64,000 nt of DNA from contig NZ_BDCR01000001.1 in the NCBI RefSeq assembly GCF_001618385.1, forward strand, positions 248,001 to 312,000, in the 5' to 3' direction. Under the pieces are notes generated by a model. It did no database searches. It saw only the letters and a list, made by a program, of their open reading frames with translations, and was not told where the DNA came from. Position numbers and translations under genes: made by a program. This DNA comes from Paludibacter jiangxiensis. GTDB lineage: Bacteria > Bacteroidota > Bacteroidia > Bacteroidales > Paludibacteraceae. This document shows, one piece after another, positions 15,640-20,710 of the stretch; position 1 is the first letter of the stretch, and each line of letters begins with the position of its first letter.

Positions 15640-15810
15640 ATGGAAGATATGATATGCAATTGCAACCAGATCACAAGAGGTGACATAATCAATGCAATAC
15701 AACAAAAAGGATTAACAACGGTTGAAGAAATTCAGGATGTTTTAGACGCAGGCACCGTTTGCGGCTCTTGTGTAGAAGACATCGAAGAAATTCTGAAATC
15801 GGTGAAATAA
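15640..15810 (+). CDS. BFD-like [2Fe-2S] mini-protein, copy 1
   Basis: 56 residues. The whole protein is one BFD-like (Fer2_BFD) domain: Cys6 and Cys8 in MICNCNQ, and Cys41 and Cys44 in GTVCGSC, the CxC...CxxC pattern that ligates a [2Fe-2S] cluster. In the founding protein, Bfd, this domain passes electrons to bacterioferritin; in nitrite reductases it sits next to flavin domains. Here it is free-standing, with its own promoter and terminator, and is 2.2-4.9 kb from two close paralogues around the NO reductase gene. It may be an electron carrier or a cluster-based sensor; the sequence alone does not decide. Confidence 0.88.
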   Translation: MEDMICNCNQITRGDIINAIQQKGLTTVEEIQDVLDAGTVCGSCVEDIEEILKSVK

Positions 15811-16462: not shown

Positions 16463-16505
16463 AATCGTGTAAGTTTAGGTGAATATTTTCTTCTTTGCTA
16501 TGTTT

Positions 16506-16531
16506 GACGCAGCTATTGCAAATCGGTTACA
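16506..16531 (-). promoter_or_regulatory. ECF-type promoter facing the DUF6249 gene
   Basis: On the minus strand TGTAAC (16526-16531), 16 bases, then CGTC (16506-16509). Same boxes and spacing as the two other copies in this region. RNA would start near 16498, giving a leader of about 36 bases. Confidence 0.65.
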
Positions 16532-16584
16532 CATTTGGCAAATTTTCTTTTCTCTTTAATAGCATAACCTCTCCGGGCGGCTTT

Positions 16585-16644
16585 TTAAAGAGCGCCAGTC
16601 AGGATAAGCCACAAAAAAAGCAGAAATAAAAACAGGTTTGTCAT
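16585..16644 (-). CDS. Possible 19-residue hydrophobic peptide (small ORF)
   Basis: ATG at 16644, stop at 16585-16587, encoding MTNLFLFLLFLWLILTGAL, a single hydrophobic stretch long enough to cross a membrane. It begins 44 bases downstream of the ECF-type promoter at 16688-16713 and is separated from the DUF6249 gene by another promoter of the same type. No ribosome binding site is evident, which is normal in this phylum. The support is its position behind a matching promoter and its composition; a hydrophobic ORF of this length can arise by chance. Confidence 0.4.
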   Translation of the reverse strand: MTNLFLFLLFLWLILTGAL

Positions 16645-16687
16645 GATCGGTTGGTTTATGCAATTAATTTTGTTCTTTGCAATATTT

Positions 16688-16713
16688 GACGCAACTTCGC
16701 ACGATTAGTTACA
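16688..16713 (-). promoter_or_regulatory. ECF-type promoter facing the 19-residue ORF
   Basis: On the minus strand TGTAAC (16708-16713), 16 bases, then CGTC (16688-16691). The surrounding 60 bases resemble those of the copy at 16506-16531 (shared TTCTTTGC and TTTGACGCA on the plus strand), as if the promoter segment had been duplicated. Confidence 0.6.
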
Positions 16714-16746
16714 CTTTGTGGCGGATTTATTTTTTTTCGCACAACG

Positions 16747-16772
16747 TGTAACCGAAACGGCAGCCTTGCGTC
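16747..16772 (+). promoter_or_regulatory. ECF-type promoter of the sigma factor gene (autoregulation)
   Basis: TGTAAC at 16747-16752, spacer of 16, CGTC at 16769-16772. The ATG of the sigma gene is only 10 bases further, so the transcript would be leaderless or nearly so. Such TGTAAC/CGTC pairs are typical of ECF sigma factors (for example sigma-X and sigma-M of Bacillus subtilis). Confidence 0.68.
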
Positions 16773-16782
16773 TAACGGATAT

Positions 16783-17340
16783 ATGGATAATCGGGACGAA
16801 TTACAGATCATCGAGCGCATACGGCAAGGAGAAACGAACCAGTTTTCGCATCTCCTCAACCGTTATAGCAATGTCATCTATTCGCTGATCGCCCGCATTA
16901 TTCCATCGAAAGAAGATGCTGAAGAGCTAACGCAGGACACGTTCCTGAAAGCGTTCCGAAAACTCGACACCTTCAAGGGCGATTGCAGTTTTTCCACCTG
17001 GCTGTTCCGCATTGCCTACAACACGGCAGTGTCGGCCACACGGAAAAACAAAATTGTTTTCCCTCTGATCGACGAAACGGTACTTGCCCGTGTTGCCGAC
17101 GAAGAGGCCGACGCCGTTTTCGAAGAAGACGAAAACGAAGAGCTGCTCCAAAAGCTGGAGATAGCCCTCGGGCAACTCAATCTGGAAGAGAGAGCTTTGA
17201 TCACGTTATATTACACCGAAAACAAACCAGTAGCCGAAATCGCTGCCATCATGGAGCTGACGGCTGACAATGTAAAGATCAAACTCTTTCGTATCCGCAA
17301 GAAATTATACGTATTAATTAACAAACAACAAGCACAATGA
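16783..17340 (+). CDS. ECF RNA polymerase sigma factor
   Basis: 185 residues. Region 2 covers about 10-80, with SKEDAEELTQDTFLKAFRKLDTFKGDCSFSTWLFRIAYN, and region 4 about 125-180, with the helix-turn-helix VAEIAAIMELTADNVKIKLFRIRKKL. An acidic linker (DEEADAVFEEDENEE) joins them. The next gene overlaps its stop (ATGA) and encodes a two-helix membrane protein, the usual place of an anti-sigma factor. Three TGTAAC-N16-CGTC elements in the intergenic region suggest that it drives itself and the divergent genes. Confidence 0.92.
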   Translation: MDNRDELQIIERIRQGETNQFSHLLNRYSNVIYSLIARIIPSKEDAEELTQDTFLKAFRKLDTFKGDCSFSTWLFRIAYNTAVSATRKNKIVFPLIDETVLARVADEEADAVFEEDENEELLQKLEIALGQLNLEERALITLYYTENKPVAEIAAIMELTADNVKIKLFRIRKKLYVLINKQQAQ

Positions 17341-17708
17341 AGCAAGACAAAGCAATCGCAAAAGCTCTAAAAAGACAGACCGGACCTCTTCTTCCCGACG
17401 GGTTCAACAGTCGGATGATGGAGAAGATTTTTCTTGCTGAAGCGAAAAAGAAGAGACAAGCCTTCATTTTCAACATCTGCCTGATTTCGTTCGTTTCGCT
17501 GGGACTGATTGTCATGGCTGGTTATCTTATGCGGGATTATCTTTCCGGAATGACCTTCCGCATGCCTACTATGCATGTCACTTCCGAAGCTCTATCGCAG
17601 TACGGTTTTTGTTTTTACATTGCTTTTTTGGTGATGGTACTGTTCGGGTTCGATCATTTTTTCCGTTCTCGTTGGCAAAAGAAGCAACTCAAAGAAGCGG
17701 GACATTAA
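17337..17708 (+). CDS. Small membrane protein, putative anti-sigma factor
   Basis: 123 residues, start codon overlapping the sigma gene's stop (ATGA), so the two are translationally coupled. A basic cytoplasmic N-terminus (1-42, with LLPDGFNSRMMEKIF) is followed by two membrane segments (about 44-66 and 90-109) and a basic tail. No zinc-binding anti-sigma motif and no large periplasmic domain are present. The coupling and topology suggest it holds the sigma factor at the membrane; this is inference. Confidence 0.7.
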   Translation: MKQDKAIAKALKRQTGPLLPDGFNSRMMEKIFLAEAKKKRQAFIFNICLISFVSLGLIVMAGYLMRDYLSGMTFRMPTMHVTSEALSQYGFCFYIAFLVMVLFGFDHFFRSRWQKKQLKEAGH

Positions 17709-17977: not shown

Positions 17978-18154
17978 ATGGAAGATATTGAAATTTGTCA
18001 TTGCAACAATGTGATGAAAAGCGAGATTATCAAAGCTATCAAAGAAAAAGGTCTTACCACAGTAGAGCAAGTGCAGGATGCCACCGATGCCGGTACCGTT
18101 TGCGGCAGTTGCATCCCCGATATCGAAGAAATTCTCACATCCGTCAACGGATAA
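17978..18154 (+). CDS. BFD-like [2Fe-2S] mini-protein, copy 2
   Basis: 58 residues from ATG 17978, chosen because both paralogues start with the same MED and because a promoter lies inside the longer frame. Cluster ligands are Cys7 and Cys9 (ICHCNN) and Cys42 and Cys45 (VCGSC). It shares long identical stretches with copy 1 (KGLTTVE, DAGTVCGSC, DIEEIL). The NO reductase gene starts 23 bases after its stop, so they should be one transcript; this makes it the best candidate for an electron carrier or a sensor dedicated to that enzyme. Confidence 0.9.
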   Translation: MEDIEICHCNNVMKSEIIKAIKEKGLTTVEQVQDATDAGTVCGSCIPDIEEILTSVNG

Positions 18155-18177: not shown

Positions 18178-20427
18178 ATGAACACCAAACAACTTTGGAT
18201 TGGATTTATCGCCGTTATGGTGGTATGTTTTTCGATTCTGGGCATTTTTGGGTATGAATTGTACCTGCAAAAGCCTCCGATTCCGGATAAAGTAATCAGT
18301 GCAAGTGGCGAATTGCTCTTTACGGGTCAGGAGATTCGCGACGGGCAGAGTGTGTGGCAATCAATAGGAGGCCAGGAAGTAGGCACGGTGTGGGGCCACG
18401 GATCATATGTGGCACCCGACTGGTCGGCCGACTGGCTACATCGCGAAGCAGTTTTTATGCTCAACAAACTGGCGCTGCATCAACAGGCAAACTCCATTCC
18501 TTACAACAAGGAAAAACCGGAGAATCAGGCGTTCCTGAAGAGCCTACTGCAAAAGGATCTGCGCACGAACAGCTATAACGAGGCAACGCACACGTTGGTT
18601 ATTTCGGACCTCAGGGCACAAGCTATCAAGGCCAACATGGAGTATTACAAAAAACTCTTCACCAACGGCAAAGATCTTGAAAAGACAAGAGTTGCCTATG
18701 CCATCCCGGCAAATACCATCAAGAACGATGCCAGCATGAAGAAGATGAATGCATTCTTCTTTTGGACTGCATGGGCATGCATTACTCAACGACCGGGCAA
18801 AATCATTACCTATACCAGCAACTGGCCTGCCGACGATTTGGTGGGCAATCATGCCACCAGTGCTCACCTGTTCTGGTCGATGTTCAGCATTGTGATGCTT
18901 TTACTGGGCATCGGGCTGCTGGGATTCTACTATGCCCGCAATCAGGACAAAACCCCTGTTCACGACCATTATCCGGATAAAGATCCGCTGATCAACCTTC
19001 AACCGACGCCTTCGATGGCGGCAACGTTGAAATATTTCTGGATAGTCACGGCATTGATTGTGGTACAGGTTCTTTCTGGAGTTATCACGGCACATTATGG
19101 CGTAGAAGGGAAAGGCTTTTTCGGCTTACCTCTCGACAATATTCTCCCCTACTCTATTTCTCGTACCTGGCACGTACAGCTTGCCATCTTCTGGATAGCA
19201 ACTGCCTGGCTCGCCACGGGACTATTTATTGCTCCCGCAGTATCAGGTTACGAACCGAAATTCCAAAAACTCGGAGTTAATGTACTGTTTGGTGCGCTGT
19301 TGATAGTGGTGATCGGTTCGCTGGCCGGAGAATGGATGGGCGTGATGCAAAAACTGGGTTTAGTACAAAACTTCTATTTCGGACATCAGGGCTACGAATA
19401 TGTCGATCTTGGACGCTTCTGGCAAATCCTTCTTTTTGCGGGATTAATTATCTGGCTCATTCTAATGGTACGAGCCTTATTGCCAGCTCTGAAAATTAAG
19501 TCGGAAAGCAGAAATCTGCTGATTCTATTCGTGATTTCATCGGTTGCCATAGCTGCATTCTACGGCGCCGGCCTTATGTACGGACGTCAGTCGCACCTAT
19601 CGGTTGCCGAATACTGGCGCTGGTGGGTGGTCCATCTCTGGGTCGAAGGATTTTTCGAAGTGTTTGCCACTACGGTTATCGCATTTATTCTGGTAAAACT
19701 GGGACTTGTCAACATCAAAACCGGCACCACAAGCGCTCTGTTTGTCACCATCATCTACCTGTTAGGAGGTATTGTCGGCACCTTCCACCACCTCTATTTT
19801 GCAGGAGCACCTATATCCATTATTGCTTTGGGAGCATCGTTCAGCGCACTGGAAGTTGTGCCTCTGGTAATGGTAGGGTCGGAAGCATGGCATAATTTCA
19901 AACTGACAAAAAGCACCGAATGGATCAAAAAATACCGTTGGGCCATCTTCTGTTTCATTGCAGTGGCCTTCTGGAACCTTGTCGGAGCCGGCGTATTCGG
20001 ATTTCTCATCAATCCGCCCATTGCCCTTTACTACATGCAGGGACTTAACACAACGCCGGTTCACGGACATACTGCCTTGTTCGGAGTGTACGGCATGCTG
20101 GGCATCGGACTGATGCTCTTCTCCCTACGCGGCATGACGCTGAAACACGAATGGCGCGAAGACGTGCTCAAATACTCTTTCTGGGGCTTTCAGATCGGAC
20201 TTATTTTGATGGTACTGCTCAGCATCCTGCCGGTAGGCATCAAGCAAACCATTGCGGCGGTCGATCATGGTATCTGGTACGCCCGCTCGATGGAGTTCAT
20301 GCAGGAACCTCTTATGCAGACGCTTCGTTGGTTGCGCGTTATCGGCGACACCATATTCGGACTGGGAAGTGTGGGATTGGTCTATTTTGTTGTCGGATTG
20401 AAAACCGGCTGGTCGCTGAAGAAATAA
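18178..20427 (+). CDS. norB: Quinol-dependent nitric oxide reductase (qNOR)
   Basis: 749 residues from ATG 18178; the frame is open further upstream but that part overlaps BFD copy 2 in another frame. Single-subunit type: an N-terminal helix plus extracytoplasmic domain (about 30-220, with ISASGELLFTGQEIRDGQSVWQSIGG and the GHGSYVAPDWSADWLHRE motif), fused to a 12-helix heme-copper-like core. Conserved histidines are seen in HVQLAIFWI, HLWVEGFFEV, GTFHHLYFAGAP and TPVHGHTALFG. It reduces two NO to N2O with electrons from quinol in the cytoplasmic membrane. No other denitrification gene is in the window, so detoxification is more likely than respiration. Confidence 0.96.
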   Translation: MNTKQLWIGFIAVMVVCFSILGIFGYELYLQKPPIPDKVISASGELLFTGQEIRDGQSVWQSIGGQEVGTVWGHGSYVAPDWSADWLHREAVFMLNKLALHQQANSIPYNKEKPENQAFLKSLLQKDLRTNSYNEATHTLVISDLRAQAIKANMEYYKKLFTNGKDLEKTRVAYAIPANTIKNDASMKKMNAFFFWTAWACITQRPGKIITYTSNWPADDLVGNHATSAHLFWSMFSIVMLLLGIGLLGFYYARNQDKTPVHDHYPDKDPLINLQPTPSMAATLKYFWIVTALIVVQVLSGVITAHYGVEGKGFFGLPLDNILPYSISRTWHVQLAIFWIATAWLATGLFIAPAVSGYEPKFQKLGVNVLFGALLIVVIGSLAGEWMGVMQKLGLVQNFYFGHQGYEYVDLGRFWQILLFAGLIIWLILMVRALLPALKIKSESRNLLILFVISSVAIAAFYGAGLMYGRQSHLSVAEYWRWWVVHLWVEGFFEVFATTVIAFILVKLGLVNIKTGTTSALFVTIIYLLGGIVGTFHHLYFAGAPISIIALGASFSALEVVPLVMVGSEAWHNFKLTKSTEWIKKYRWAIFCFIAVAFWNLVGAGVFGFLINPPIALYYMQGLNTTPVHGHTALFGVYGMLGIGLMLFSLRGMTLKHEWREDVLKYSFWGFQIGLILMVLLSILPVGIKQTIAAVDHGIWYARSMEFMQEPLMQTLRWLRVIGDTIFGLGSVGLVYFVVGLKTGWSLKK

Positions 20428-20511: not shown

Positions 20512-20533
20512 TGGAATAAAAACCTCTCAAAAT

Positions 20534-20710
20534 ATGGAAGACACAGAAATTTGCCATTGCAACAACGTTTCGAAGAACGAAATTACCAATGCTATCTGCC
20601 AACACGGATATACCTCCGTAGCCGAAATACAGAATAAACTCAAAGCCGGCATTATTTGCGGGCGCTGTATTCCTGAGATACGGGACATTCTGGCAAAACA
20701 AAACCAATAA
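20534..20710 (+). CDS. BFD-like [2Fe-2S] mini-protein, copy 3
   Basis: 58 residues from ATG 20534, supported by the promoter just upstream and by alignment with the paralogues. Ligands are Cys7 and Cys9 (ICHCNN) and Cys42 and Cys45 (ICGRC); an extra Cys22 is unique to this copy. It is more divergent than the other two (basic KLKAGIICGRCIPEIRDIL). It follows the NO reductase gene but has its own promoter. The next gene begins 56 bases on and may be co-transcribed. Confidence 0.88.
   Translation: MEDTEICHCNNVSKNEITNAICQHGYTSVAEIQNKLKAGIICGRCIPEIRDILAKQNQ

Follow-up and report, generated by a model that had tools for sequence, protein, structure and literature searches.

The SigW-RsiW system of Bacillus subtilis and the RpoE/AlgU-type ECF sigma factors are encoded in autoregulated sigma/anti-sigma operons, and the SigW-RsiW and RpoE-type systems have related AAC/CGT-type promoter boxes. 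In ECF promoters of this -35/-10 type the order and spacing are like those of TGTAAC...CGTC boxes, with transcription usually beginning 6-9 nt past the CGTC. Within Bacteroides, EcfO-Reo and the ECF21 system Das-Dma each consist of an ECF sigma factor with an adjacent membrane partner and are associated with envelope stress (PMC13088901, PMC13114119, PMC9308784), and the partners Reo and Dma contain a C-terminal outer-membrane beta-barrel. The ECF factor of the CirY-CirZ-spy locus of Phocaeicola vulgatus is described as raising its own locus most strongly, its targets being spy and two downstream genes (PMC13114119). A set of promoters in Flavobacterium psychrophilum SM6, including that of a sigma/anti-sigma pair, has a conserved CGT -10 box (PMC9723704).

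A locus in Paludibacter jiangxiensis, analysed here within a window of 64 kb (the whole stretch of DNA under study), is in kind an autoregulated ECF locus, which is a well known type. It comprises an ECF sigma gene, a downstream gene for a protein with two transmembrane (TM) helices and a divergent gene for a DUF6249 membrane protein (Table 1). The locus resembles SigW-RsiW further in that RsiW tops the solved matches of the two-TM family, and SigW (5wuq) stands with 6in7 (sigma-H), 8z6g and sigma-E (1or7) among the best solved structures for the sigma profile. Unlike in SigW-RsiW and RpoE-type systems, however, the partner in the window has two TM helices, a zinc finger being found, among the partner frames read, just in the distant locus L202, and the regulon looks confined to a single locus in which DUF6249 is the usual divergent partner. 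With EcfO-Reo and Das-Dma the locus shares a Bacteroidales ECF sigma factor and a membrane partner encoded alongside, but the partner here is of only 123 residues with an all-helical model, and the tether plus outer-membrane beta-barrel of the ECF21 Das/Dma and EcfO/Reo proteins is absent from it. Similarly, CirY-CirZ-spy offers a Bacteroidales ECF acting on its own locus, a likeness by description and not by compared sequences, where the target proposed in the window is instead the divergent DUF6249 gene. The SM6 promoters are alike in belonging to the Bacteroidota and in their CGT-type -10 box; their regulon, on the other hand, is broader and includes T9SS genes, and the available part of that account gives no TGTAACC-like -35 (PMC9723704). 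A literature search of titles and abstracts returned no description of this version of the locus; the ECF reclassification, in which the motif may be present, lay outside that search.

Table 1. Features of the sigma locus and their coordinates in the window.
Feature	Position	Strand	Remark
DUF6249 membrane protein, 139 aa	16043-16462	-	PF19762, 35.9 bits against a gathering cut-off of 33
P1 leader, 43 nt, to DUF6249	16463-16505	-	CAAAGAA-type stretch also in close relatives
P1, reverse promoter	16506-16531	-	precedes the DUF6249 gene
Candidate micro-peptide frame, 19 aa, hydrophobic	16585-16644 (including stop)	-	
P2 leader, 43 nt, to 19-aa frame	16645-16687	-	26/43 identical to the P1 leader
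P2, reverse promoter	16688-16713	-	precedes the 19-aa frame
Sigma operon promoter, TGTAAC-N16-CGTC	16747-16772	+	CGTC ends 10 nt upstream of the sigma ATG
ECF sigma factor, 185 aa	16783-17340	+	regions 2 and 4 by family match
Two-TM protein, 123 aa, candidate anti-sigma factor	17337-17708	+	start overlaps the sigma stop (ATGA); putative role

The assignment of the sigma factor is straightforward. Sigma70_r2 is found at residues 24-90 and Sigma70_r4_2 at residues 124-175, the match to TIGR02937 scores 98.3 bits (cut-off 42.9), and the presence of regions 2 and 4, the lack of region 3 and a length of about 200 aa are those of an ECF (group 4 sigma-70) factor, as are the AAC-type -35 and CGT-type -10 boxes before its own gene. 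Paludibacter MAGs are the nearest named records, the sigma factor being 96% identical in NZ_WASO01000001 and 97% identical in a Bacteroidota MAG. Around the locus lie genes for BFD-type [2Fe-2S] ferredoxins, two recognised by family match and a third alike by eye (15640-15810, 17978-18154 and 20532-20710, + strand), and a large membrane protein (18180-20427, + strand) which, judged by eye, looks like a quinol-dependent nitric oxide reductase. In L020, the neighbours of the sigma locus look different from those in the window.

An earlier sequence-only reading had placed three copies of TGTAAC-N16-CGTC in the gap between the sigma and DUF6249 genes, one directed towards the former and two towards the latter. 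A pattern search of the whole window found exactly these three sites, all in that gap, against a mean of 0.07 sites in dinucleotide shuffles and with three or more sites in 0 of 100 shuffles. The same reading had also assigned a 16-base spacer and a TG ahead of CGTC to every copy. Both hold for the three window sites, but neither is a rule in relatives: forward spacers are of 16 nt in 72, of 17 nt in 17 and of 15 nt in 1 of 90 cases, and TG is only a preference, found in 11/14 close and 21/58 distant loci for forward N16 sites and in 11/14 close and 25/41 distant loci for reverse ones. The consensus refined from the aligned sites is TGTAACC-N15-GCGTC(A/T)AA in A+T-rich surroundings.

Conservation of the boxes in orthologous loci had been set beforehand as a test of the promoter assignment. 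Among 150 genomes of the family, the organism's own included, a sigma ortholog (E <= 1e-30) occurs in 12, and 11 of these have exact forward and reverse sites; in the twelfth (L018) the forward site has one mismatch and the reverse site an N17 spacer. Across the order, 164 of 393 genomes match the sigma family profile at E <= 1e-30. From these, 30 loci came from the initial profile search and 60 were picked among the matches listed, the top ones first and then weaker ones; together with the 12 family loci, L020 and L024 they give a set of 103 sigma genes, which are related loci and not a random draw, with L096 (a copy of L007), L019, L021, L022, L023 and L025 (contigs of genomes already in the set) and the more distant loci L026-L040, of which L032-L040 are short or weaker matches, kept outside it. 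TGTAAC-N15-17-CGTC lies within 300 nt upstream of 90 of the 103 genes, where shuffling predicts 0.085 and the reversed pattern gives 0. A reverse copy within 700 nt is seen in 69 loci, a divergent DUF6249 gene in 67 and all three features in 63. By profile score, the complete arrangement is present in 14/14 loci at 300 or more, 10/12 at 200-300, 26/50 at 170-200, 11/13 at 150-170 and 2/14 below 150. Moreover, the boxes are kept in distant loci where mean identity of the N16 spacer is down to 0.33-0.38. In other words, the boxes persist while the spacers diverge, and the pattern is conserved and linked both to this sigma factor and to DUF6249; the proposition that the promoter code of the adjacent sigma factor can be read at the locus is supported as far as sequence goes.

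The 13 sigma genes with no exact motif directly upstream are of several kinds. In five of them (L018, L113, L149, L155 and L195) a copy with one mismatch stands at the expected place, and from four (L165, L193, L196 and L207) both the motif and DUF6249 are missing. In L189, L191, L198 and L199 the DUF6249 gene lies upstream of the sigma gene on the same strand, and in three of these four (L189, L198 and L199) an exact TGTAAC-N16-CGTC stands before DUF6249 and not between the genes, L191 having no motif. These three rearranged loci support a promoter link to DUF6249 itself. Two relatives, L015 and L017, have their sigma promoter farther off, some 100-110 nt upstream of where the sigma gene is modelled to start, against the usual distance of about 10 nt. 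The group L026-L031, at 34-37% identity, was set aside as by eye another locus, the exact motif being absent before the distant named Bacteroidales sigma genes L026, L027, L029, L030 and L031. In three of them from Bacteroidaceae and Prevotellaceae (L026, L027 and L031), two to three tandem GTAACACTA...CGT units occur some 100-200 nt ahead of the sigma match.

The position of the forward site is itself informative. From the end of CGTC to the first in-frame sigma ATG there are 8-13 nt in 70 of 89 measured loci, which, if transcription starts 6-9 nt past CGTC, would leave a leader of few nucleotides; the sigma transcript thus probably has almost no leader. Leaderless mRNAs make up 5.5% in F. 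psychrophilum (PMC9723704). This short distance bears also on whether the sites might be operators of a DNA-binding regulator rather than promoters, as might be supposed from three copies sharing one gap and from two conserved boxes of the kind found in a bipartite site. Such a role is very improbable, since the boxes are non-palindromic and directional, always face a gene here, mostly stand at this distance from the ATG and resemble the ECF -35/-10 type in their order and spacing. Nor does a housekeeping promoter account for the three elements: TAnnTTTG occurs at 16499 and 16665 (+ strand), in neither case with a TTTG at a fitting distance, and 29 of the 103 sigma genes have it among the 60 nt that precede them (a raw, uncontrolled count). 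Elements of this type may supply basal transcription.

Taking the sites as ECF promoters, the next matter is which sigma factor would read them. Forward and reverse spacers have equal lengths in 61 of 67 loci (16/16 in 51, 17/17 in 10, mixed in 6), an agreement which is suggestive of a common reader of both directions; a tree-aware test on the 67 sigma factors, with 2 usable independent pairs on starred branches, was not significant, and the agreement was dropped as proof of a common reader because the independent pairs are too few. The back-to-back pair, searched as one pattern, occurs in 3 of 395 genomes of the phylum (control 0), in three families and each time beside this sigma family. As only five further members of this order were drawn, and three of those lack the pair, the search tests specificity outside the order and says less of spread within it. 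Moreover, of the 19 Sigma70_r4_2 matches in the organism's own genome, the exact motif is found in the 250 nt upstream of the window sigma gene alone. It is improbable, therefore, that the promoters are read mainly by another ECF factor of similar code with the window sigma as a mere target, although the code may be shared among paralogs or cross-read by them: in an ECF gene of the same genome (L130, near G000:C3:318492) GTAAC-N17-CGTC precedes the ATG by 13 nt, in an ECF gene of other type in G033 (L069) an exact TGTAAC-N16-CGTC is found 12 nt upstream of the start, and overlapping ECF regulons are suggested for F. psychrophilum (PMC9723704). Another ECF gene of the organism (L136, near G000:C1:815807) has a looser CGTC box 10 nt before its ATG, and, to judge from L130 and L136, autoregulated ECF genes with almost no leader may be frequent in this genome.

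The frequency of the motif elsewhere speaks in the same way for a local reader, off-locus exact sites being no commoner than in the control. The sequence-only reading had proposed a genome-wide search for TGTAAC-N16-CGTC, and this uncovered no wider regulon: the 3.66-Mb genome contains 6 exact hits against 8 for the pattern read backwards, such that the signal lies in the clustering of three copies over 267 bp of a single gap, which exceeds chance, and the regulon looks local. The three exact sites away from the locus are within long open frames and have no TG before CGTC. Relaxed searches of the same genome gave no excess either, with 36 hits against 63 for one mismatch plus GCGTC and 18 against 21 for N15-17 spacers. 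Of the off-locus sites in the N16 and one-mismatch searches, 28 of 33 were viewed; 24 overlap long open frames, and of the other 4 none has an intact TGTAAC. The N15-17 search added 12 new sites, 10 of them overlapping long frames and two (L214 and L217) not. L214, with an N15 spacer 128 nt upstream of a 457-aa frame, is a possible but unlikely target, as N15 is found in just 1/90 sigma promoters. A search of ten relatives gave 59 exact hits against 68 for the control, with 23 of the 59 at the sigma locus, and a wide regulon of exact sites was accordingly rejected on the counts from the own genome and the relatives. There may be weak additional regulon sites beyond the exact pattern. Among 28 assessable exact sites of the relatives (about half of those there were viewed), five are intergenic elsewhere (L068, L069, L073, L076 and L081) and precede unlike proteins, as judged from the first 40 residues; they are possible lineage-specific targets or paralog promoters, one of them preceding a different ECF sigma gene.

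The protein encoded downstream of the sigma factor is a candidate for its anti-sigma factor. The downstream frame is readable in 76 of the 103 loci, the fetched DNA having ended before it in most of the remaining 27, and a hydropathy scan gives two TM helices in 69, one in 6 and none in 1; in 19 of the 76 it overlaps the sigma gene by 4 nt. An FxxxxM motif stands just ahead of TM1 in 23 aligned partners, F23 being invariant and M28 nearly so. The best solved match of the profile, RsiW, is aligned over residues 50-78 of an 80-residue chain (E 0.12, 15.6 bits), a match that is not significant alone. A co-evolution study describes the binding of anti-sigma helix 4 to sigma region 2 (PMC7406223), and the RsiW-aligned segment would correspond to this helix. 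The model of the window protein consists of plain helices of middling confidence, at 4-13 and, as one long helix, at 23-71. Strict membership of class I fails, because the N-terminal three-helix bundle, often with Hx3Cx2C, is missing, there being about 40 residues before TM1. Neither zf-HC2 nor any family above its cut-off is found in the window protein. Of three partners scanned for the zinc finger only the distant L202 has it, zf-HC2 scoring 25.5 bits against a cut-off of 22.2 ahead of a similar motif and TM helices; L202 might be a link between the stripped two-TM family and classical anti-sigma factors. For 23 further two-TM proteins, zf-HC2 is not among the best 25 of 47 and of 32 families, where weak matches to anti-sigma families do appear (three to Sigma_reg_N, with an E of 0.053 at best, and one to NF052375, with an E of 0.012) beside stronger ones that look unrelated. 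We infer from these features that the two-TM protein is a class I anti-sigma factor stripped of its bundle. It could alternatively be an effector made together with the sigma factor and with no anti-sigma function, for which the missing bundle, the absence of a family match in the window protein and the RsiW match at an E value of 0.12 may all be cited; this is unlikely, though by no means negligible, given its position and ATGA overlap with the sigma gene, the alignment of its short cytoplasmic segment ahead of TM1 with RsiW, and the above-threshold zf-HC2 of L202, which is followed by a motif of this type and by TM helices. In this regard, class I anti-sigma domains adjoin just 6% of Bacteroidetes ECFs in a survey (PMC7406223), from which it follows that the partners of most ECF factors in the phylum are unknown.

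As for DUF6249, a PF19762 match at E <= 0.01 is obtained for every one of 25 aligned members, and the model, likewise of plain helices and middling confidence, contains three long helices with a mean pLDDT of 72.5. A literature search on the domain gave a sole match which, by its title and abstract, concerns a plant kinase family. That the regulon would include DUF6249, as had been suggested from the window, is supported by the site before it in 3/4 re-ordered loci and by the occurrence of the promoter pair beside this sigma alone. Since the promoter code of DUF6249 is that of the sigma gene, and since the two genes have operon-like strand and order in some genomes, its membership of the signalling module is favoured over a role as a distant effector.

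The second reverse promoter is a lineage-specific matter, two reverse sites being found only in L007-L010 (G000, G114, G078 and G060) among the 103 loci. P2 stands about as far from the sigma promoter as does the reverse site of many relatives that have only one, and P2 and P1 each lie 43 nt upstream of an ATG. The similarity of their leaders (as high in 0/5000 shuffles) and of the first 45 coding bases (21/45 identical, 0.004 by shuffling) suggests that promoter, leader and DUF6249 start were duplicated in tandem. The suggestion that the regulon might also contain a micro-peptide stands in part, there being a plausible frame after P2, but in four genomes only. Whether the duplication gave rise to a function is finely balanced. 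A neutral duplication, with no function for the 19-aa frame or for the second promoter, falls only a little short of an even chance; it agrees with the four-genome distribution and with the comparison of L007 and L010, in which changes by codon position (9, 6, 9) have no bias and are as frequent in the frame (24/60) as in the adjoining spacer (23/52). Between these same loci, however, the length and 11/19 residues of the frame are kept, whereas in simulations of drift the frame survives in 0.12 of runs and, where it does, is as similar as observed in 0.001 (a comparison chosen post hoc), and in the three closest genomes 1/60 bases of the frame differ, as compared with 10/53 and 12/53 in the bases that follow.

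Overall, it is very likely that the three sites are promoters for the adjacent ECF sigma factor, and that the sigma/two-TM operon is autoregulated and DUF6249 driven from the same gap, the two-TM protein being the probable holder of the sigma factor; in other words, activation by the sigma factor of both its own genes and the neighbour is very probable. In the mechanism that we infer, the two-TM protein, ATGA-coupled to the sigma factor, would in the resting cell probably keep the latter at the membrane, until an envelope or membrane signal frees it. RNA polymerase loaded with the freed sigma factor would then read all three elements, firing the back-to-back promoters together: the forward one would give an almost leaderless mRNA of the sigma/two-TM operon, and hence positive autoregulation, while both reverse promoters would serve DUF6249 and P2 additionally the 19-aa hydrophobic frame. 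Newly made two-TM protein would reset the switch, with DUF6249 as the most constant output, which may feed back on the sensor.

As judged from gene and promoter arrangement, the module is widespread in the order. A fuller picture may tentatively be drawn, although in its entirety it is somewhat more probably wrong than right, of a Bacteroidales-wide membrane switch in three parts: a near-leaderless ECF sigma factor, a two-TM anti-sigma factor which has no bundle but would keep the region-2 clamp, and DUF6249 under the same code, with one lineage in which duplication of the DUF6249 promoter, leader and first-helix codons brought a new 19-aa TM peptide into the regulon. Many families of a single order allow promoter, partner and target to be read side by side, and the code is as such directly testable. 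Moreover, the locus offers a candidate family of anti-sigma factors and a regulatory home for DUF6249, a domain of unknown function.
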